Made by a program: the position numbers and the translations under genes | Part shown: positions 42,519 through 52,069 of the stretch, one piece after another | Layout of the letters: every line of letters begins with the position of its first letter | Numbering within the stretch: position 1 is the stretch's first letter | Assembly: GCA_019358855.1 (NCBI GenBank) | Contig: JAHHII010000001.1 | Location: 310,001-374,000, forward strand | Direction: 5' to 3' | Length of the DNA stretch: 64,000 nt | DNA from: Timaviella obliquedivisa GSE-PSE-MK23-08B | GTDB taxonomy: Bacteria > Cyanobacteriota > Cyanobacteriia > Elainellales > Elainellaceae | The notes under the pieces: generated by a model | Seen by the model: the letters and a program-made list of their open reading frames with translations, nothing else | Databases searched by the model: none | What the model was told of the DNA's origin: nothing

Positions 42519-43943
42519 ATGCTATGCCAGCCCTCGGTTCCCACCCTTAGCTCCACTCAAGATTGTAAACAGTTATATCGGTTTGTTGAATTTTGCAAAC
42601 AACAATCCATGATCGATCATCATCCCAAGGTTGCTAGCGTTACCTTGGGCATTCCAGTCGTTGATCCACTGCAAGTGATCCATGATCTGATGCAGCCGGA
42701 TGAACTGCATTTTTACATAGAAAACCGGGAGGAGGGGATGGCGATCGCTGCCATCAACACCACTCTCATTCATCGATCTGAGGGCACTCAGCGATTCGCT
42801 AATGCCCAACAGTTTACGCAAAATTGGCTTCAGCATTTCATCACTGAGGGAGAACATTCGCCTTGGGCAGTGCCTCAGTTCTTTGGCAACTTCACGTTTT
42901 TTGATCAAGAGCCTACTTCTTGCTTTGCACCTGCCACAATTTTTTTGCCCCAATGGCAAATCGTTCGCCGTCAAGAGCAATGTGCTTTAGTCGCTAATTT
43001 TCTAGTTGATTTTCAATCCAATTCAGAACAATTAGCAATTAAAGTTTGGCAGCAGATCCAAACCGTGAATCGATTGCAGCACGATTGCCTATTTTTTACC
43101 AATGTTTTGCCGCATCCCTTAGAGCAATGGGACAGAAAGCAATGGCAAACTGAGCCGTTTCGATCGGCGGTGATCGCGGCGCTAGAATCGATCCAGAATC
43201 AGCAAATCCATAAGCTGGTTTTAGCTCATGCGGTTGATGTGCGATCGCCACTGCCTTTTCAGTGGGCGCATTCCTTGCACAACTTGCGGCAGCGCCATCC
43301 TGACTGCACAGTGTTTTCGGTAGGTAACGGTCAAGGGCAAAGTTTTATTGGTGCCAGTCCAGAGCGGATTTTAAGCATTCACAATCATCAGCTTGTCACT
43401 GATGCATTAGCAGGTTCATCCCCGCGTGGGCGATCGACAATTGAAGATGCTGATTTGGCACAGCGATTGATGAACAGTGATAAAGAGCGACGAGAGCATC
43501 AAGTTGTTGTAGATTTTATTGCGCAAAGATTAGTGCATTTAGGGTTGCAGCCTACGTTTATAAATAGTCCTACTATCTTGCCATTATCTAATATCCAACA
43601 TTTGCATACGCCCATTCACGCGGCTATTCCTAATCACGTTCACCCATTTGAGATTTTGGCATCCCTACACCCAACTCCGGCGGTGGCTGGACTGCCTAGA
43701 GAAATTGCTTGTCAGCAGATTCGACAGTATGAAAACTTTGGGCGATCGCTCTATGCTGCGCCGCTGGGCTGGTTGGATGCTCAAGGAAACGCTGAGTTTA
43801 TCGTGGGCATTCGATCGGCGTTGTTAGATGGGCACTGCGCTCGTCTTTATGCAGGCGCAGGCATTGTCCAAGGCTCTGACCCAGACCGGGAATTAGCAGA
43901 AATTAAGCTGAAGTTTCAAACGCTCTTGCAGGCGCTAGTTTGA
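42519..43943 (+). CDS. menF: Isochorismate synthase
   Basis: A 474-residue chorismate-utilising enzyme converting chorismate to isochorismate for phylloquinone. The C-terminal half carries KLVLAHAVDV, FIGASPERILS, ALAGSSPRGRSTIEDADLAQRL, HPTPAVAGLPRE and YAGAGIVQGSDPDRELAEI, all diagnostic of the MenF/EntC/TrpE fold. The N-terminal 200 residues are poorly conserved as usual. It converges on the surface-glycan cluster with a 9-bp overlap of 3' ends. Confidence 0.93.
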   Translation: MLCQPSVPTLSSTQDCKQLYRFVEFCKQQSMIDHHPKVASVTLGIPVVDPLQVIHDLMQPDELHFYIENREEGMAIAAINTTLIHRSEGTQRFANAQQFTQNWLQHFITEGEHSPWAVPQFFGNFTFFDQEPTSCFAPATIFLPQWQIVRRQEQCALVANFLVDFQSNSEQLAIKVWQQIQTVNRLQHDCLFFTNVLPHPLEQWDRKQWQTEPFRSAVIAALESIQNQQIHKLVLAHAVDVRSPLPFQWAHSLHNLRQRHPDCTVFSVGNGQGQSFIGASPERILSIHNHQLVTDALAGSSPRGRSTIEDADLAQRLMNSDKERREHQVVVDFIAQRLVHLGLQPTFINSPTILPLSNIQHLHTPIHAAIPNHVHPFEILASLHPTPAVAGLPREIACQQIRQYENFGRSLYAAPLGWLDAQGNAEFIVGIRSALLDGHCARLYAGAGIVQGSDPDRELAEIKLKFQTLLQALV

Positions 43944-44858
43944 AATCAGCCGCTTGAATTTTCGCCAGATCCGCCTGGCCAATCCCCCTGCCTTCAATTT
44001 CTCTAATTCATCCCGCAGGGTGCTCACTTGGACTTGCAAAGCATCTTCTTGAGATTCTAGATAAATAATACGCTGTTCTCTTTTTTGAGAGAGATAGTGA
44101 GTTTTTTCTAAGCGATCGTACTTGTCAATAAAAGATTTTTGAAGTTCTACTAAACGTTGATTGAGCCAATCTGGTTCTTGGTAAAGAGGAACTTGATTTT
44201 GAATGGCAAAAACTTCTTCAAATAAAGGGCGAATGTGACTTGATGCGCCTCCATGAGCATAAGATACAATCGTTCGAGGGTAATAGCCTAACTGAAGTGT
44301 ATTATTTTGCAGCAATCGAGTGAACCATTCGTAGTCTCCAGCAATGTTATAAGACTCGTTAAATAGTCCCAACTTCTGAAACAGGGCAGCTTTAAAGAAG
44401 CTAGCAGGTTGAATGAAGCATTCTCCTAAGCAGACCATTTCTTTAAGAATTTGATCGGGTGTGGCAGGTTTATGAATAGAAGACTTACCGAAGTTGAATC
44501 TTGCTTCATGATCGCCGTAGAGGAAGTCATATTCTGGACGATCTGCTAGAAAGTGAACCACATCATGAATAACGTTAGGATCATACAAGTAATCATCGGA
44601 GTTAAGGAAGTATAAAATATTTCCAGTGGCAAGTTGAATGCCTTTATTCATGGCGGCATAGATGCCATTATCAGGTTCGCTAATAAAATAGGTAATGCGA
44701 TCGCCATACTGCTCAATAATCGATTTTGTCCTATCAGTTGAATCACCATCAATCACAATATATTCAATTTGCGGATAGGTTTGAGTAACGAGACTTTGAA
44801 TCGATCGCTCAATAGTTTTTTCTGAGTTTTTACAGACTGTGATGACAGAAACTTTCAT
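43935..44858 (-). CDS. Glycosyltransferase family 2 with C-terminal coiled coil and basic tail
   Basis: About 307 residues: a GT-A domain (VSVITVCKNSEKTIERSIQS, FLNSDDYLYDP metal-binding region) followed by a coiled coil (YLESQEDALQVQVSTLRDELEKL in outline) and a basic end ARRIWRKFKRL. The basic tail is related in character to the SKFW module of the neighbouring genes but lacks the SKFW core. The frame opens at a TTG (44876), and the ATG at 44858 is preferred because it starts at the first Rossmann strand. Last gene of the seven-gene operon. Confidence 0.82.
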   Translation of the reverse strand: MKVSVITVCKNSEKTIERSIQSLVTQTYPQIEYIVIDGDSTDRTKSIIEQYGDRITYFISEPDNGIYAAMNKGIQLATGNILYFLNSDDYLYDPNVIHDVVHFLADRPEYDFLYGDHEARFNFGKSSIHKPATPDQILKEMVCLGECFIQPASFFKAALFQKLGLFNESYNIAGDYEWFTRLLQNNTLQLGYYPRTIVSYAHGGASSHIRPLFEEVFAIQNQVPLYQEPDWLNQRLVELQKSFIDKYDRLEKTHYLSQKREQRIIYLESQEDALQVQVSTLRDELEKLKAGGLARRIWRKFKRLISN

Positions 44859-44862
44859 AGAC

Positions 44863-46389
44863 TTACTCTTGTTCAACAGATAATCCCAACCACCGTTTTA
44901 GTTTAAACCACGCGCTGCGGAGCTTCCAAAACTTGCTAGTTTCTATAGCGGTAAGGCGATCGCGCAATATTTGTACTTCTGCTTGCGATCGCTCTAACGA
45001 TTGCCGGGCTTGCCGCCGAGATTCCTGCAATTCCTCTTCTGTAACTTTCAATGCCAGCGGATAAAACACTTTTTCAAAGCGCTTGCCCATCGCACCCGAA
45101 CCCCTCTCACTGCTGTACTGCTTTGGAGCATTGTGTCTCAAGTCCTCATATAGTTCAAGGTATCGCTGTGCCTGCACCGTTAAAGCATACTGTTGTGCCA
45201 TGACTTGCCGAGAGGCTTGTGCCCGGTGCTCTCGTAAATCATCAGCAAAGATGCCCTCTAAGATTGCTGCTGCCATTGCCGCAGTGTCTCCTAGCGGCAC
45301 AGTCCAGCCCGTCACACCATTTTTAACCACATCTGGAATGCCGCCTACCTCAAACGCAATGACAGGCGTACCGCAACTCATGGCTTCTAGCATGGTGTTA
45401 GGAAAGTTGTCTTCGAGGGAAGGCAGGACAAACAGGTCGGCAGCGGCATAGACTTGGCGGAGTTGTAGGTCAGAGTCAATTCTGCCAAAGAAATGCAAAG
45501 GCAAGCCAAGTTCGGTGAGGTGCTCGTTGGGAGTGCCGAAACACCAAAGCTGGAATTTTTGGGCAGCAAGAAGAGCTTGAAATTGAGGATTTTGGCGGCA
45601 GAGGTGCAGAGCTTGCAGCAGTTCGACAAACCCTTTGCGATCTTCGTTACCGTTGTCTGCACCAATCAGGAGAGCGATCGCCCCTGCTTCAAGTCCTAAT
45701 TCGCGTTTTGCCTCTGCCCGATTTAAGGGGAAAAAAACATCTGTTTCTAAAGAATAAGGAATTACCTCAATCCGTTGATTCTTCAACACGCGACTTTGCT
45801 TGGCGCAATTAGCTAACCACTGGCTAGGCGTAACAATCACAAGCGGTGTATCGCCCAACAAATCCAGCCGATCTTGCAACACTGCTGCGGTGAGGCTGTA
45901 TGGATCAGCTTGGAGTTGAGGACACACGGCACAATTTTGTTGATATTGATTGCACCCTGCTGAGTAATGACAGCCGCCCGTGAATGCCCACATATCATGC
46001 AGCGTCCAAACCACAGGCTTGTGCATTAACAGATGATGTAGGCTGGCAGGGGATTGATAATAAGCAACCCAATGAAGATTAATAATGTCAGCAGTAACGA
46101 TCGCATCGACAGGAGTTAAATCAATTCCGGGGTAGGGCAGTGAGAACGAAGTATTAGATAAAGGCGTGCGATTTTGGTTAACGTAACGCTTCTGAATGAT
46201 GGAAAGGAAACTGGAATGAGGATTGGTGGAAGAATGATCAAGCTTGAGAACAGTTTTATCTGGCGATCGCCGATCCAAAACCAGCATTTGTGAGTCTTGC
46301 TGAATAGCAATTAGTCCTCGGTGCAAACGGTAAGCCGCTCGTGCCGCTCCACCCCGAATATCACTGTTGCTCACCTGAATAATTTTCAT
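44863..46389 (-). CDS. Glycosyltransferase family 4 with C-terminal coiled coil and SKFW module
   Basis: A 508-residue GT-B enzyme. The N-terminus is MKIIQVSNSDIRGGAARAAY, and the donor site region PSLEDNFPNTMLEAMSCGTPVI carries the E(x7)E motif. After residue 430 comes a coiled coil (ARQSLERSQAEVQILRDRL) ending with IETSKFWKLRSAWFKLKRWL, the cluster-wide tag. The open frame begins at 46485 but overlaps the upstream gene; the ATG at 46389, seven bases after the upstream stop, is the clear start. Confidence 0.87.
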   Translation of the reverse strand: MKIIQVSNSDIRGGAARAAYRLHRGLIAIQQDSQMLVLDRRSPDKTVLKLDHSSTNPHSSFLSIIQKRYVNQNRTPLSNTSFSLPYPGIDLTPVDAIVTADIINLHWVAYYQSPASLHHLLMHKPVVWTLHDMWAFTGGCHYSAGCNQYQQNCAVCPQLQADPYSLTAAVLQDRLDLLGDTPLVIVTPSQWLANCAKQSRVLKNQRIEVIPYSLETDVFFPLNRAEAKRELGLEAGAIALLIGADNGNEDRKGFVELLQALHLCRQNPQFQALLAAQKFQLWCFGTPNEHLTELGLPLHFFGRIDSDLQLRQVYAAADLFVLPSLEDNFPNTMLEAMSCGTPVIAFEVGGIPDVVKNGVTGWTVPLGDTAAMAAAILEGIFADDLREHRAQASRQVMAQQYALTVQAQRYLELYEDLRHNAPKQYSSERGSGAMGKRFEKVFYPLALKVTEEELQESRRQARQSLERSQAEVQILRDRLTAIETSKFWKLRSAWFKLKRWLGLSVEQE

Positions 46390-46396
46390 AGTTATA

Positions 46397-47530
46397 TTAC
46401 TCCTGCCTACGCAAGCGAAGCATTCGCTTAAAGCGAAACCATCCTTTGCGAATTGCCCAAAACTTGCTGGTTTCCATAGCGGCAATTTGCGATCGCGCTT
46501 GCTCTAGCTCTTGCTGAGTGTTGTCAAGACGCGATCGCAAATGTTCTATGCGGACTTTGCGATTCAGCAATTTTTCCTGGAGTTGTTCAATCTCGGCAGA
46601 GCGTGGGTCAGCCAAAGCTTTTCGTAAAAGGCGACGTTTCAGCATTGGGTCAATGCGGTTAGCTAACCTGTAGATGCGGATGTGGACTCGATTGGGCGCT
46701 TCATTGCGGTGAGCGATCGCGGCTTCGTACCAGCGTTCTAACATCACTTGATAGGCTTTGTTTGCCGTTTCAGGGGCAATGTTGCAATGCTGAAGGGCAT
46801 ACTTTAAAACCTGATAGCTTTCTTCGGCGTAAACGAGATATTTTAATGAGCCAGAACGAACGGAATGGGCATGGGTGCGAAAGTAGTTGAGCGGCGTGGC
46901 AACAAAGGCAATATCTGATTGCATGAGAATTTTAATCCAAGTGAGCCAATCACCACAGAGTTTTAGAGATTCTTCAGCCTTTCCGACCTGTTCATAAACA
47001 TTGCGACGGATGAGGGTAGCACTAGCATTAGGAACTGTATTTTTGTAGATTAAATAGCGTTGACATTCATCTTTACCATTATTAATAAAGTCCTGTTGCC
47101 AGCGTTCTAAATCAAGAGTATCGGTATTGAGTTTCCACGATTGCAAAATGCGATCGCCTTCATCCACTCCCCACGATTGACAGTAAGCTAAACCGACGTT
47201 GGGATGGCGATCGAGAACGTCAACTAATCGCTCCAAAAAGTGTTTATCGGTATAGTCATCAGACTCGGCAATCCAGAGGTATTCGCCTTGGGCTAAGCTT
47301 GCACCTTTGTTCCACTGTTTGAAAGGAATACCGCTATTCGTTTCGTTTTTAATAACATGAGTAAAGTGAGATAGAAATGGGGCAACAACAACATCGCTAT
47401 TATCAGTAGAAGTATCGTCGAGGTAAATGATTTCAAAGTCTTGGAAGGTTTGGTCAAGAATGCTTCGGACGCGCTTGGTGAGGAAGCGATCGTGATTATA
47501 GTTGGGGATGATGACGCTGACTTTAGGCAC
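46397..47530 (-). CDS. Glycosyltransferase family 2 with C-terminal coiled coil and SKFW module
   Basis: A 377-residue GT-A enzyme (VSVIIPNYNHDRFL, IYLDDTSTD, WIAESDDYTDKHFLERL). The domain ends near residue 260, followed by a helical region, a coiled coil (LQEKLLNRKVRIEHLRSRLD) and the end METSKFWAIRKGWFRFKRML. It shares this tail with four neighbours. Spacing to the next gene is 7 bp, so it is in the same operon. Sugar unknown. Confidence 0.87.
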   Translation of the reverse strand: MPKVSVIIPNYNHDRFLTKRVRSILDQTFQDFEIIYLDDTSTDNSDVVVAPFLSHFTHVIKNETNSGIPFKQWNKGASLAQGEYLWIAESDDYTDKHFLERLVDVLDRHPNVGLAYCQSWGVDEGDRILQSWKLNTDTLDLERWQQDFINNGKDECQRYLIYKNTVPNASATLIRRNVYEQVGKAEESLKLCGDWLTWIKILMQSDIAFVATPLNYFRTHAHSVRSGSLKYLVYAEESYQVLKYALQHCNIAPETANKAYQVMLERWYEAAIAHRNEAPNRVHIRIYRLANRIDPMLKRRLLRKALADPRSAEIEQLQEKLLNRKVRIEHLRSRLDNTQQELEQARSQIAAMETSKFWAIRKGWFRFKRMLRLRRQE

Positions 47531-47556
47531 TGGTTTAAAACCGCTCGATCTGAGCT

Positions 47557-48657
47557 TTATCGTTGTTCTTTACTAATCCTGAAAAAGCGTTTAATGTGCA
47601 ACCAACTTTTTCTAAGCTTCCAAAACTTGCTAGTTTCCATTGCCGCAGTTCTCTCCTGTGCTTCTGCCAGTTCTGCTCTGGTCTTTTGTAAATTTTGGCG
47701 CACACGCTTTAAGGTGACTTGTGCCTCTTGCAGTTGAGCTTGAGTTGAAGATGAAGTCTGATGTTCACCATGTCGCGGCGCACCAAACACGATCGTCATA
47801 TCGTCATACTGTTCAATTAACTTAGAAAACTTTTTCTTAAAATGCTGTACCAATATCTCGGTGTAAGCATTAGTGGTATGAATCATCGAATTAGGGTGAA
47901 CTCGGTAGGCACTTAAAATGTTAGGCACCAGCCTAGCGTCGTAGCCCGCTTGCGCTAGCTTTAGCCACAAGTCATAATCTTCCCAGCCTGACCAAGCAAT
48001 CACCATGAGTTCGGTAGAATAGCCACCGACTTTTAGCAAAATGTCCTTTTTGAACATTGCCATAGCGTCAATATAGGGGCAAGTGAGCAACTCCCTCACA
48101 TCCCACTCGTAAAAAGAAATTAATCCAGCGCCTTTACCTGTTTTACTATTAAAGCGATTAATGATGCCATACACTCCAGCAGATCCAGAGGTGTGAATGG
48201 CTTTATACAAAACGGATAAACAATTAGGATAAATCCAATTGTCGGCATCTAAAATGAAAACGAACGGAGCCCGAGCTAGGTGCAAGCCAGTATTACGGGC
48301 ATCAGCTAAGCCTGTATTGAATGCTTTCTTGACAAGGCAGATGGGGGTTTTGAAGTTCTTAAGATAATCTTCAACTAGACTAGCTGATTCGTCAGTGGAG
48401 CAATCATCGATAATGAGCACATCAAAACCACCCGGTAACGGGTCGGTAATAGTGGCGCAAACGCTATCCAAACATTGTTTAATATAGTCAGCATAGTTGT
48501 AAAGGGTAATGATGACCGTCACACTCGGAGTGGTGCAGCCATCAAAAGCGGCATTACTGGTAACAACCCAAGGCTCTTTACCCAGGAAGGCACACAGCTT
48601 CGCCATTTCTAGCCTTGTGCCCATCATGTTGCGTTTTGCCGACTCAATACTCTCCAT
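47557..48657 (-). CDS. Glycosyltransferase family 2 with C-terminal coiled coil and SKFW module
   Basis: A 366-residue protein. After a 45-residue N-terminal extension comes a GT-A domain (VTVIITLYNYADYIKQC, LIIDDCSTDES, FILDADNWIYPN, AWSGWEDYDLWLKLA). Residues 310-340 are a coiled coil (AQLQEAQVTLKRVRQNLQK) and the end is METSKFWKLRKSWLHIKRFF. It starts five bases after the upstream gene's stop. Substrate unknown. Confidence 0.87.
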   Translation of the reverse strand: MESIESAKRNMMGTRLEMAKLCAFLGKEPWVVTSNAAFDGCTTPSVTVIITLYNYADYIKQCLDSVCATITDPLPGGFDVLIIDDCSTDESASLVEDYLKNFKTPICLVKKAFNTGLADARNTGLHLARAPFVFILDADNWIYPNCLSVLYKAIHTSGSAGVYGIINRFNSKTGKGAGLISFYEWDVRELLTCPYIDAMAMFKKDILLKVGGYSTELMVIAWSGWEDYDLWLKLAQAGYDARLVPNILSAYRVHPNSMIHTTNAYTEILVQHFKKKFSKLIEQYDDMTIVFGAPRHGEHQTSSSTQAQLQEAQVTLKRVRQNLQKTRAELAEAQERTAAMETSKFWKLRKSWLHIKRFFRISKEQR

Positions 48658-48662
48658 GAGGT

Positions 48663-49637
48663 CTATGCCTTTTGCAGATTTTTTTGTTCTAAATGCTGTC
48701 TCAACTCTTGTAATACTGATTTGCAGAGAATACCAGAGTTAAATTCTTGAGTAATAAATTCGTAAGCTTTGTTAACGATCGCTAATCGTTCTGATTCATG
48801 TTCTAGATAGTAGTCACATTGGGCAGCAATGTCGTCTATCTCGGTGATAATTAAATGTTTATTATTAATGAGTGGCTCAATGTAGTCGCTGGTTTCGGAA
48901 ATGACAAGACAACCGTTAGCGATCGCCATCACGACTCTCAACCATTCAAAGTAAGTATTATCGTTAGCGTGAATGTTGACTAAGATTTTGCAGGAGCGCA
49001 AAAGTCGATTGCGATCGTGGTTGGCAAAAAATCCGGCAGTGTGGTGAAATTTAGGTTTTTCTAGACGGGTGATGACGATATTGCTGTTGTAACGATTGAA
49101 CAGATCAGCATTTTGAGAGAGAAAGCGCTCACGTTTAGGGGAGTTGCTGCCGAGAAAAAGTAGGTCGAAGGTGCGATCGGGCAGATTTTTGGGATCGATC
49201 CCTGCTTCAAAACAGGTGGCGTAACCCAAGGGAGCATGGAGCGTGAAGATGCCGCGTTTGCGGTATTCGATAGCAGTGTGCTCGGTAATATCTAAAACGC
49301 CAAGAGAGGGTCTAGCGCGATCGCAAGCCATCTCAAACCAATGGGTGAGCGGTTGTTCGGCACTCAGGATATAGACCGATCGCACCACTTCTAAAACTTC
49401 AGTGGGGGTAAGCCGCGGTTCTAGAAACAGGTTGAAGAACTCGTGGGGAGCAATGACCAACTGCATCAATTCCGGTTTAGGCTGAAGGGATGGAATCTTA
49501 TCAATCCTAATTTCTGACTGAATGCCGCTATTTCTGAAGCCTTCATCAAAAATCTCAGCAATCTCAATCATGAAATGATTGCCTAATGATGTGACAAATA
49601 TTTTGACGGCTTGGATAAGAGGCTGGGAAGAAGACAT
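48663..49637 (-). CDS. Putative CgeB-like glycosyltransferase
   Basis: A 324-residue protein without the SKFW tail. Segments DLLFLGSNSPKRERFLS, ILVNIHANDNTYFEWLRVVMAIANGCLVISE and DYIEPLINNKHLI follow the pattern of the CgeB/spore-maturation-type GT-B glycosyltransferases, where the second segment lines the donor site. The N-terminal half is less conserved. Position inside the glycosyltransferase operon supports the call. A non-catalytic role is possible. Confidence 0.65.
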   Translation of the reverse strand: MSSSQPLIQAVKIFVTSLGNHFMIEIAEIFDEGFRNSGIQSEIRIDKIPSLQPKPELMQLVIAPHEFFNLFLEPRLTPTEVLEVVRSVYILSAEQPLTHWFEMACDRARPSLGVLDITEHTAIEYRKRGIFTLHAPLGYATCFEAGIDPKNLPDRTFDLLFLGSNSPKRERFLSQNADLFNRYNSNIVITRLEKPKFHHTAGFFANHDRNRLLRSCKILVNIHANDNTYFEWLRVVMAIANGCLVISETSDYIEPLINNKHLIITEIDDIAAQCDYYLEHESERLAIVNKAYEFITQEFNSGILCKSVLQELRQHLEQKNLQKA

Positions 49638-49699
49638 TAATCTAGAGAAAAAACGGACTGGTCAAATCGTGACTTTTCAGGCATCTTTATAGGAGAAAC

Positions 49700-50710
49700 C
49701 TAAGGTAACCTTCTCGCAATTAGAACGACCTCATAGGCTCCATTTTTGAAGACCAACTCAATATCAAATTTGATAGATAGATTTTGCTGTAAGTCGACAA
49801 AGAGTTTTAGCCACGAGGTTTGAGTAAAGACGTGATAGTGAATGCTGTAGTCAATCTCAATGAGATGGTCAATTTCACGGGCGATATCGGCTTCGTCTTG
49901 TTTTTTCCCAACATGACGTACCCAGCCTTCAAAGTGCTGGCGTTTTGACCACGCGGGACCCTCAGTATGATCGCGCCATATATGTTCTAGAGAGGTGACT
50001 TGACGATCGACATCAAAGCTAAAGCGTTTGTCGGGGATGGCGGTGTATAAAATGCCTCCTGGTTTGAGCACTCGGAGCATATTGTGAATGGCGCCAATGG
50101 TATCTTGACAATGCTCAATGAAATGGTTGGCAATGACAAAGTCTTGGGTGACATCTGCGATGGTTTCTAGTTCTTCGCCGTTGGCTAAGATGTCGGCTTC
50201 GACGAGGTCTATATCGTTGAGTTCTGGGTACTGCTGCCGTAGGTCTGCAACGGACATACGATCAACGTAGAGAACCTTGACACCTTCGGGGACAGCAAGA
50301 GGATGGTTTAAAGCCCCGATCTCAATACCTTGCCCTTTAAGATATAGTTCTGCGATGTGTTCGCGGGTCAACTCCATAATTGACTTCTGTTCTAATGGAA
50401 GCGCTTTTATGGGAGCTTCTGCAACCGCGCTGATGAGTTCGGTGGGCGTGGAAAGCAGATCAGTCGTATCAGGACGAGGCTGAGGGAGCGATCGCGTCTC
50501 GTGAAAGTTATCTTTGCCCAGCCTAAGGCTCTTTTTTAGCTCAAACCAAGCATTCCGCAATTGCCAAAACTTGCTGCTTTCCATCGCAGTGATAATCGAG
50601 GTGGCATAGTTATGTTCTTTTTGGACTTGCTGAAGCTTTCGTTTGAGTCGTTTAAGTTGGTTCTGGAGTTGCTGAACTTCTGGTTGTTCTGCGTCAATTT
50701 TTGTTTGCAT
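49700..50710 (-). CDS. SAM-dependent methyltransferase with N-terminal coiled coil and SKFW module
   Basis: A 336-residue protein. Here the tag is at the front: a coiled coil (residues 10-38, QQLQNQLKRLKRKLQQVQ) then MESSKFWQLRNAWFELKKSL at about 43-62, followed after a linker by a class I methyltransferase domain (KGQGIEIGALNHPLAVPEGV, VIANHFIEHCQDTIGAIHNMLRVLKPGG). The reversed order relative to its neighbours argues that the tag is a portable module. The likely target is a sugar or lipid intermediate; unknown. Confidence 0.82.
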   Translation of the reverse strand: MQTKIDAEQPEVQQLQNQLKRLKRKLQQVQKEHNYATSIITAMESSKFWQLRNAWFELKKSLRLGKDNFHETRSLPQPRPDTTDLLSTPTELISAVAEAPIKALPLEQKSIMELTREHIAELYLKGQGIEIGALNHPLAVPEGVKVLYVDRMSVADLRQQYPELNDIDLVEADILANGEELETIADVTQDFVIANHFIEHCQDTIGAIHNMLRVLKPGGILYTAIPDKRFSFDVDRQVTSLEHIWRDHTEGPAWSKRQHFEGWVRHVGKKQDEADIAREIDHLIEIDYSIHYHVFTQTSWLKLFVDLQQNLSIKFDIELVFKNGAYEVVLIARRLP

Positions 50711-50857
50711 CTACTTTACCTCATACAGACTAAACGCCCCTTGCCTCAAGCGCAGAAGGAATTCCGCAATGTGCAATACAAAGATTACCATTGAAATGTC
50801 CTAAACCCACCCACGATCATTGAAGGAATTGCTGACAATGAATGATGAAAGACAGCA

Positions 50858-52069
50858 TTATTCTGGGGTAGACAGTCGCAAAAATCGTTTGAGCTTGAAC
50901 CAGCCTTTTCTGAACTTCCAGAATTTACTGGTCTGCATTGCATTAATCTCGTTTTGCGCGTTGTCTCGTGCTACTCGGATTTCTTGTCGCTTTGCTCTGA
51001 TTCGAGTCAGCCGATGATTAAGAACTTCTATATTGGTTTGAAGCTCCCAAATCTGATTCTTTGTATTTTCTAAGTCTGATTGAGTTTCACCAAGCTGCTC
51101 TTTGATTTGGTATCGCTCTACTTGAGTTTGGTGCAGCTTAGCATTGGCTTCGTAGAGTTCTACCTGTGTTTGATGAAGTTGTGTCGTCGCTTCGTAGAGT
51201 TCTACCTGTGTTTGATGAAGTTGTGTCGTCGCTTCGTAGAGTTCTACCTGTGTTTGATGAAGTTGTGCAGTCGCTTCGTAGGATTGGGTCTGGGCTTCAT
51301 GAAGCTCTAATTGAGTTTGATGAAAATGAGTTCTAGAGTCATGAAGTTCTGTCTGAGCTTGGTGAAGTTGAGAAGCAAGGGTCACAACCTGTTGTTGTTC
51401 TCGAACCAATTTTTGAGCTGATACTGCATGGCTTATAAGGTAGCTGTCTTGCATGGCGATCGCCAGCACATCTTCTAAGCTATTTTCCTGAGTCTTTTGT
51501 AACTCCCAGATAGATATATTTTTGACATACCAGTCTAAAGTACTGACTAGACGAGCCTGGACTGATGCTTCATGAAGCAGCTTAAATCCTCGACTGACTA
51601 AGCAAGAGAACCAATGCGCTTCAGGCTTCTCGTTAATGTGTCCTGTACCACCTTGCCCTGGGGTTGCACCACTAAAAACAAGATAGCGATGGGTATGCCG
51701 GGCAATGTTATTGAACACAGTCTCCTCACAAGCCTCAGGAATATGTTCTACGACTTCAGTACACATCACAACGTCGTAGGTTTTTTCAAGATCAAAGGGT
51801 TGACTGAGATCCTGTTGAATTTGGTAGCCTGGGGCTTTAAATGATGTGCCTAGATCTTCTCCTTCTACTCCCCAAGCCTCAACTCTTTTTTCTCTAAGCC
51901 ACTTAACGAAATAACCTTGACCACAGCCTAAATCTAGAACGGTTGTTGGTTGACAAATATCTAAGACTGATTGAATGAAGCCCTCATCGAATGCCGACTG
52001 ATCAGGTAAACGATCAGCATACATTTCTTTCTTCCAAGGACCGCTCAAGTTGTCTGAAGCTAAATCCAT
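50858..52069 (-). CDS. SAM-dependent methyltransferase with long repetitive coiled coil and C-terminal SKFW module
   Basis: A 403-residue protein. Residues 1-190 are a class I methyltransferase (VLDLGCGQGYFVKWL, VMCTEVVEHIPEA). A long heptad coiled coil in residues 230-350 includes three near-identical 14-residue units (QLHQTQVELYEAT type), encoded by 42-bp direct repeats at 51147-51272. The end is MQTSKFWKFRKGWFKLKRFL. It is the first gene of the seven-gene operon, 139 bp from the tRNA gene. Confidence 0.82.
   Translation of the reverse strand: MDLASDNLSGPWKKEMYADRLPDQSAFDEGFIQSVLDICQPTTVLDLGCGQGYFVKWLREKRVEAWGVEGEDLGTSFKAPGYQIQQDLSQPFDLEKTYDVVMCTEVVEHIPEACEETVFNNIARHTHRYLVFSGATPGQGGTGHINEKPEAHWFSCLVSRGFKLLHEASVQARLVSTLDWYVKNISIWELQKTQENSLEDVLAIAMQDSYLISHAVSAQKLVREQQQVVTLASQLHQAQTELHDSRTHFHQTQLELHEAQTQSYEATAQLHQTQVELYEATTQLHQTQVELYEATTQLHQTQVELYEANAKLHQTQVERYQIKEQLGETQSDLENTKNQIWELQTNIEVLNHRLTRIRAKRQEIRVARDNAQNEINAMQTSKFWKFRKGWFKLKRFLRLSTPE
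51147..51272 (-). repeat. Three tandem 42-bp direct repeats inside a methyltransferase coiled coil
   Basis: Units start at 51147, 51189 and 51231. The first two are identical over 42 bp and the third differs only in its last bases. Each encodes 14 residues, two heptads of the coiled coil. Diverged relatives extend on both sides, so the coiled coil probably grew by unit duplication. Confidence 0.9.

Follow-up and report, generated by a model that had tools for sequence, protein, structure and literature searches.

To our knowledge, the gathering of soluble surface-polysaccharide enzymes at the membrane has been worked out in few cases, WbdD of Escherichia coli among them. The accessible portions of the published accounts describe a catalytic part, a coiled-coil ruler, a C-terminal membrane-associated amphipathic helix, and a WbdA site, with a C-terminal region that in O9a binds the membrane and recruits the polymerase WbdA (PMC11231755, PMC3447403, PMC6286764); PMC3482155, likewise in its accessible portion, gives the length of O9a WbdD as 708 residues and reports that a WbdD fragment is a trimer. 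Here we analyze a 64,000-nucleotide stretch of the cyanobacterium Timaviella obliquedivisa GSE-PSE-MK23-08B (GenBank assembly GCA_019358855.1, contig JAHHII010000001.1, forward-strand positions 310,001 to 374,000; hereafter the window, numbered from its first letter), in which five of seven consecutive genes encode the same short element, a coiled coil followed by a basic, Trp-rich segment that begins Ser-Lys-Phe-Trp (the SKFW tag). On balance we favor reading this element as a portable membrane-anchor module, a parallel coil plus a short basic amphipathic helix, similar to that of WbdD.

WbdD of E. coli O8, O9, and O9a, like the O99-type gene, shares with the tagged proteins a catalytic domain (a methyltransferase in O8), a coiled coil, an S..W segment, and basic stretches. 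The protein encoded at 50858-52069 has the same order of parts as WbdD: a methyltransferase domain (Methyltransf_23, E 7.7e-11), a 171-residue rod (50933..51445, minus strand, modeled as a single helix over residues 209-379), and the tag, its S..W segment standing at the end of the coil as in the WbdD type. Basic amphipathic helices are also described for LpxK, PimA, and LpxB, a Trp of PimA associating with the membrane, but these belong to single enzymes or GT-B domains, and the accessible portion of that account (PMC6286764) mentions neither a coil nor portability. Searches of the open literature with motif strings and topics gave, by title and among the matches listed, no description of an SKFW or S.SWR tail as a module.

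Five enzymes of one operon carry the SKFW tag

The locus comprises seven consecutive minus-strand genes between menF-like and menD-like genes (the flanks named by reading their translations), to which Pfam assigns a GT2, a GT4, two further GT2s, a GT-B-like protein, and two methyltransferases. Coil and tag occur in five of the seven. The tag helix is C-terminal in the GT4 (SKFWKLRSAWFKLKRWLGL; 44881..44937) and in the first tagged GT2 (gene 46397-47530; 46412..46468), both located by motif and profile search, as well as in the second tagged GT2 (gene 47557-48657; 47578..47631) and the methyltransferase 50858-52069 (50873..50929), both defined by profile and model; it is N-terminal in the methyltransferase 49700-50710 (50519..50575), as established by motif, profile, and comparison of relatives. 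The S of SKFW lies at 44937, 46468, 47631, 50929, and 50575 respectively, and all five copies are on the minus strand. The GT4 tag reads IETSKFW and the other four M(E/Q)(T/S)SKFW.

A DNA pattern for the motif matches five times, and the reversed control not at all. When a profile of the five tails was run against the 4.9 Mb genome, the five window genes scored E < 1e-22, as they must by construction; the next best match had E = 0.27, and four more were weaker still. The initial annotation, which had placed the element in these five genes and had named the GT4 as the one lacking the Met, was correct on both points.

Occurrence and partner domains in other genomes

The five-tail profile matches at E <= 0.01 in 45 of 60 genomes (the T. 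obliquedivisa genome itself, one congener, 34 from its family, and 24 from its class), which leaves 44 of the 59 others, and several copies per contig are frequent. The pattern A[MI][EQ][TS]SKFW, run over 84,980 species genomes, gave 274 stretches, 243 of them confirmed; the best 80 of the 243 matches represent 74 loci, all cyanobacterial by title. Over these 74 loci and the window (75 in all) a refined profile found 174 tag copies in 170 open reading frames (ORFs), including one weak member (L072, E 0.016); 129 copies lie within 40 residues of the C-terminus, 36 are internal, 7 are N-terminal, and 2 are at contig edges. At least two tagged ORFs are present in 58 of the 75 loci, with a maximum of six; three proteins end in two tandem tags, and a protein of 1124 residues combines an internal copy with a terminal one.

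Partner domains were tabulated for 111 tagged proteins non-redundant at 60%. The 94 shorter ones contain Glycos_transf_2 (28), Methyltransf_23 (28), Glycos_transf_1 (13), Sulfotransfer_3 (5), Methyltransf_24 (5), and more rarely FkbM (4), TylF (1), and Sulfotransfer_1 (1); the 17 long ones contain Glycos_transf_1 (12), Glycos_transf_2 (9), Methyltransf_23 (4), and Sulfotransfer_3 (2). Among the families listed (the 25 commonest of 31, the other six having one member each), tagged proteins thus hold only GT2, GT4, methyltransferase, and sulfotransferase families and one coiled-coil model, with at least four kinds of catalytic domain. The untagged neighbors, a sample of 130 from 260 non-redundant proteins (252 of up to 900 residues) drawn from 462 complete ones of at least 180 residues, have the same families plus Wzt_C (7), ABC_tran (7), and Epimerase (4) among the 25 commonest of 126, and none of these three is found in tagged proteins among the families listed. 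This difference in spectrum would fit a tag for enzymes that touch a lipid-linked chain.

No Pfam or NCBIfam domain covers the SKFW segment above its curated cut-off, weak coiled-coil matches lying below it, and no PDB entry matches over the tag at E below 0.001 (best E 0.31, to coiled coils). The profile search and partner table that the initial annotation had proposed bear out its picture of a portable module on unrelated catalytic folds.

We considered and rejected an association of the tag with ATP-binding cassette (ABC) export as a general rule: Wzt_C is present in 31 of the 45 tagged and in 10 of the 15 untagged genomes. Tag and Wzt_C do lie a few kb apart in three of the 60 genomes (G050, G057, and G059), many of the assemblies being fragmented.

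Tags were also seen in less usual settings. Only one of 72,556 plasmid records, from Nostoc, contains the SKFW consensus, and a single viral-contig record (L114, 117 kb) encodes an SKFW tag. In a contig of the same genus (L115:7468-11268, minus strand) a fusion of 1266 residues reads, by inspection of its domains, as a deacetylase-like start, GT2, coil, SKFW tag, GT2, GT2, coil, and SKFW tag. Giant proteins of about 1750-1850 residues with a divergent internal tag (for instance S-D-W-W or S-L-W-W) occur in L050, L056, L061, L064, L065, L073, L076, L080, L082, L085, L098, L100, and L113, and a longer relative in L069 has GT2, GT4, and methyltransferase domains.

Predicted anatomy of the tag

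Across 173 copies, and partly as a result of selection by the scan pattern and profile threshold, S28 is conserved in 99%, W31 in 99%, R34 in 95%, W37 in 91%, K/R41 in 94%, K29 in 91%, F30 in 88%, and A24 in 85%. In the 144 gap-free copies the tag helix has a mean net charge of +5.6 and a hydrophobic moment of 0.373, compared with 0.274 after shuffling. Two AlphaFold2 models show a helix-kink-helix anatomy. For the GT2 47557-48657 (24 sequences), a coil helix spanning residues 301-341 (47635..47757, minus strand) is followed by a kink at T342-S343 and a helix at 344-358 with a predicted local distance difference test score (pLDDT) of about 85, the catalytic domain being modeled confidently (blocks mostly > 90). 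For the methyltransferase 50858-52069, the rod is followed by a kink at T380-S381 and a helix at 382-396 with pLDDT about 72-78; this model rests on 7 sequences and has a mean pLDDT of 68, with rod blocks mostly at 80-91 and a poorly modeled catalytic part below 80. The initial annotation had proposed an interfacial membrane helix, and charge, hydrophobic moment, and models all agree with this, although membrane binding itself we infer, as we do the oligomer state and height function of the tag.

Upstream of the tag the coil has hydrophobic a/d layers in a register fixed relative to the tag, and it is charge-paired. In the last heptad, 57 of 113 copies have opposite charges, mostly R/E or E/K, at positions g21 and e26, and 3 have equal charges; shuffling gives a mean of 32.7 opposite pairs, and none of 5000 shuffles is as high. 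One heptad earlier the count is 23/113 against a shuffled 13.1 (0/1000 as high), and two heptads before the last there is little effect (14/102 against 9.6; 62/1000 as high). Because opposite g-e charges are expected for parallel helices, this covariation supports a coil of parallel helices. A published trimer motif, R(g)-h(a)-x-x-h(d)-E(e), requires Leu, Ile, or Val at d and is seen in some dimers as well (PMC3653964, accessible portion); the looser pattern R-h-x-x-[ILVM]-E is found in 35 of 113 copies at the last register but falls to 2 and 0 in the two registers before it, and among the five window tags the motif is present in the GT4 only (RLTAIE).

Coil-like stretches are longer after methyltransferases (median 60 residues, 9/30 at 100 or more) than after GT2s (median 45, 2/35) or GT4s (median 19, 0/14), with p = 5e-4 for methyltransferases versus glycosyltransferases, length being crudely defined as a run containing no Pro and at most one Gly, and 29 copies without a classified upstream domain (median 56, 4 at 100 or more) being left out. 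Enzyme classes were assigned by iterated profiles, which left 23 of 111 proteins unclassified (regular expressions left 88). Such lengths would fit a ruler model. Inside the rod of the methyltransferase 50858-52069, 42-nucleotide tandem repeats (placed at 51149..51274, minus strand, or more widely at 51107-51379) correspond to 14-residue coil units, and rod length could therefore change easily.

Related tails in proteobacteria and in WbdD

We took tails of the type S.SWRLTAPLR (S.SW[RK].T.PLR) to be present on enzymes of other bacteria, an assumption then tested here, and we found no named family for them. Relatives of the 49700 methyltransferase in L086 and L115 (33-34% identity) have an S.SW-type tail, and a search for this second type over the 60 genomes found three. 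With the L086 tail as query at E <= 10, 31 of the 72,556 plasmid records match, the single E-values being weak (best 0.04); 21, some of them near-copies, are annotated at the match as glycosyltransferase, methyltransferase, FkbM, sulfotransferase, or 'rhamnan synthesis', 6 as hypothetical, and 4 are unannotated. Sequences were taken from thirteen of the 31 records and from the Nostoc record; one of the thirteen, L133, has T for the first S and was used neither for the profile nor for counting codons. Like the SKFW tags, these tails consist of a coil-like stretch followed by S..W[RK][LIVM] on glycosyltransferases, methyltransferases, FkbM proteins, and sulfotransferases; unlike them, they have T.PLR in place of LR..WF.LK and mixed serine codons (AGY in 9/16).

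One plasmid match is a methyltransferase gene between the O8 wzt and a large glycosyltransferase, the place of WbdD, with a coil-like stretch and NSRSWRITQPLRWL; the same gene order is repeated in an E. coli chromosome. The gene at the WbdD place of an O9 locus encodes 708 residues with IEKIHRSRSWRMTKGYRYLG, and that of an O99 locus has ILNSRSWMITKPYRYFG. Both of these loci were picked by wzm/wzt DNA, independently of the tail, and all three genes were assigned by place and length, the records not using the name wbdD. In all three WbdD-position genes the S.SW segment follows a coil-like stretch; none is present in the O60 locus read. In the O8 and O9 loci the segment is absent from WbdA (and, in O8, from WbdB and WbdC), whereas the cyanobacterial tag is also found on glycosyltransferases, sulfotransferases, and other methyltransferases; the O8 and O9 genes lie beside Wzm/Wzt and continue for 116-117 residues after the S, whereas the cyanobacterial SKFW..R..W mostly lies near the very end.

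The two tail profiles (107 and 13 sequences) align in register with a probability of 93.3, against at most 4.1 in 30 column shuffles; for the 28-column core alone the probability is 81.4, against at most 26.7 in 30 shuffles. We had cut both tail sets around S..W, which helps the register but not the comparison with shuffles. In a search of 448 stretches with the SKFW profile, the O9 WbdD tail scores weakly (E 0.004) and the O8 tail is not detected (E 5.7). A cyanobacterial protein ending in KRSRSWKLARKL (L072:4601-5635), the weakly scoring member mentioned above, is intermediate between the SKFW and S.SWR forms.

Descent and movement of the tag

The two codon blocks for serine cannot be interconverted by a single base change. 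Of 108 non-redundant copies, 104 have AGY at the SKFW serine (148/163 with redundant copies included), as opposed to 37% AGY over all serines of the same proteins and 60/167 in Ser-Lys pairs outside tags. The SKFW serine is also AGY in 55/57 copies in loci from a protein search (some of which share genomes, 8 matches without S..W being set aside) and in 32/37 copies outside the scan pattern. The tag is portable, and its SKFW form is of common descent; because the serine is nearly always AGY, the tags on unrelated enzymes most likely derive from one ancestor and then moved between genes.

Individual lineages are consistent with movement. The methyltransferase 49700-50710 has its tag in front, but a 49% identical relative in L084 has it at the far C-terminus, so the flip in position noted in the initial annotation is real. 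In L115 a 34% identical relative ends instead in NSKSWKITAPLR, an S.SW.TAPLR-type tail, and directly upstream of that gene a stranded SKFW piece lies between stop codons (L115:6699-6800, minus strand). The GT2 43935-44876 ends in a coil plus the divergent tail ARRIWRKFKRLISN (43938..43979, minus strand), which retains only the second half of the tag (W.KFKRL). Twelve tails were compared, counting this one and that of a close orthologue: in five relatives at 43-59% identity a full tag stands where this protein has ARRIWRKFKRL, one has an internal tag, and four at 44-50% identity are without a tag. The suggestion that this end is a remote version of the tag is plausible.

The initial annotation had further suggested, from DNA similarity around the motif, that the module spreads by recombination. 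Old common descent is strongly supported by the serine codons, but the DNA similarity between the five copies follows mostly from the protein: identical residues have the same codon in 52 of 120 core comparisons, where 42 (standard deviation about 5 if comparisons were independent, which they are not) are expected, and in 15 of 53 coil comparisons, where 18 are expected. By this measure of codon agreement, evidence for recent gene conversion among the five is weak at best, and we set that idea aside.

A proposed membrane anchor and its alternatives

We propose that a parallel coiled coil would end at the T/S-S kink, beyond which the basic, Trp-rich amphipathic helix (SKFWKLR..WFKLKR) would lie on the cytoplasmic face of the plasma membrane; that several helices per coil would provide avidity; that the module would keep glycosyltransferases, methyltransferases, and sulfotransferases of lipid-linked glycans near their substrate; and that the coil would determine how high the catalytic domain stands, being short in glycosyltransferases and longer in methyltransferases. 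The module would then work like the C-terminal part of WbdD, with its related S..W segment after the coil. If this is true, a portable tag would let sequence predict which enzymes work together on lipid-linked glycans, would explain the long rods on length-controlling enzymes, and would provide a ready targeting module.

Several points weigh against this proposal. Specifically, i) no membrane or oligomer experiment on the tag appears among the literature matches listed; ii) the methyltransferase 50858-52069 has no wzm/wzt neighbor, Wzt_C in this genome being found only on contigs C8 and C22 and the window on C1, and since the operon is without Wzt and tag and Wzt_C are not associated, the export context of WbdD is not general; iii) the strict trimer motif occurs in only 5 of 113 copies, 30 more having Met at d; iv) without its coil the proteobacterial core profile selects poorly, with tags at 9 of the top 20 and 35 of the top 100 hits (170 of 2778 ORFs being tagged), and the full 50-column profile, although selective (47 of the top 50 at tags), benefits from the coil; v) the accessible portion of PMC3447403 implies that a WbdD 1-600 construct already contains the amphipathic helix, and describes another, apparently full-length form as hard to solubilize; since SRSW starts at 592, that construct ends inside the segment, and the published helix may be distinct from SRSW; and vi) the conserved R34 and K41 sit beside the hydrophobic face on a helical wheel, so the helix may have a specific ligand instead of plain lipid.

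This last point leads to a different reading, doubtful in our judgment yet deserving attention, in which the W31-R34-W37-K41 stripe would bind one receptor, for example a polyprenyl-pyrophosphate glycan or a membrane protein of the pathway. Conservation of S28, W31, R34, W37, and K/R41 is tighter than a generic lipid helix needs, even if partly selected by the search, and cores are alike across loci; the S.SW tails, however, retain S and W31, and usually a basic residue at 32, but not the R34/W37 pattern. The initial annotation had read the element as a docking or membrane-association module that assembles the enzymes into one complex. If it served for docking, coils on the various enzymes of an operon would pair as hetero-oligomers into a multi-enzyme complex with the SKFW helix in the interface. 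The frequent presence of two or more tagged ORFs per locus, a coil register common to the tags, mostly compatible g-e charges, and a similarity between coil halves of unrelated enzymes that is slightly higher inside a locus than across loci (0.246 vs 0.211; 1/1000 shuffles as high) would suit such docking. We nonetheless consider it unlikely: the tag cores are not locus-specific (0.594 within vs 0.581 between loci; 147/1000 shuffles as high), the R/E and E/K types are each self-complementary, so that they give no preference to hetero- over homo-oligomers, genome composition may account for the small coil effect, and many relatives are untagged (of the 43935 gene and its related ORFs, 46 in all, 21 have a tag). 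A docking code specific to each operon was accordingly dropped, and the nearly equal similarity of cores within and between loci is better explained by a common target.

It is highly improbable, and refuted as far as these data go, that the segment belongs invariably to some known catalytic domain or reflects a chance likeness among coiled coils; the coiled-coil matches that might suggest this are weak and below curated cut-offs, whereas the tag occurs on unrelated folds and in three positions with no Pfam or NCBIfam domain over it, and its serine codons favor common descent. A bolder reading, which we think unlikely though less so, is that both tails, SKFW in cyanobacteria and S.SWR.T.PLR in proteobacteria including WbdD, are one ancient interchangeable adaptor whose coils would mix the enzymes of a pathway into one membrane assembly and set their heights. 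We conclude that the tag is real, common in cyanobacteria, and of one origin, and that it is probably a membrane anchor with a spacer of the WbdD kind.

Other features of the locus

The remaining untagged gene of the operon encodes the GT-B-like protein (48663..49637, minus strand; Glyco_trans_1_2 by Pfam), from which SKFW is absent. Translation of the GT4 ORF probably begins at residue 33, from which an 84% identical homologue aligns, and the ORF would therefore not run into the next gene; the 43935 gene probably starts near residue 6-7. Orthologues of three window genes, with 83-90% identity, are found in the other genome of the same genus (G001) and in a Leptolyngbyaceae contig (L040).

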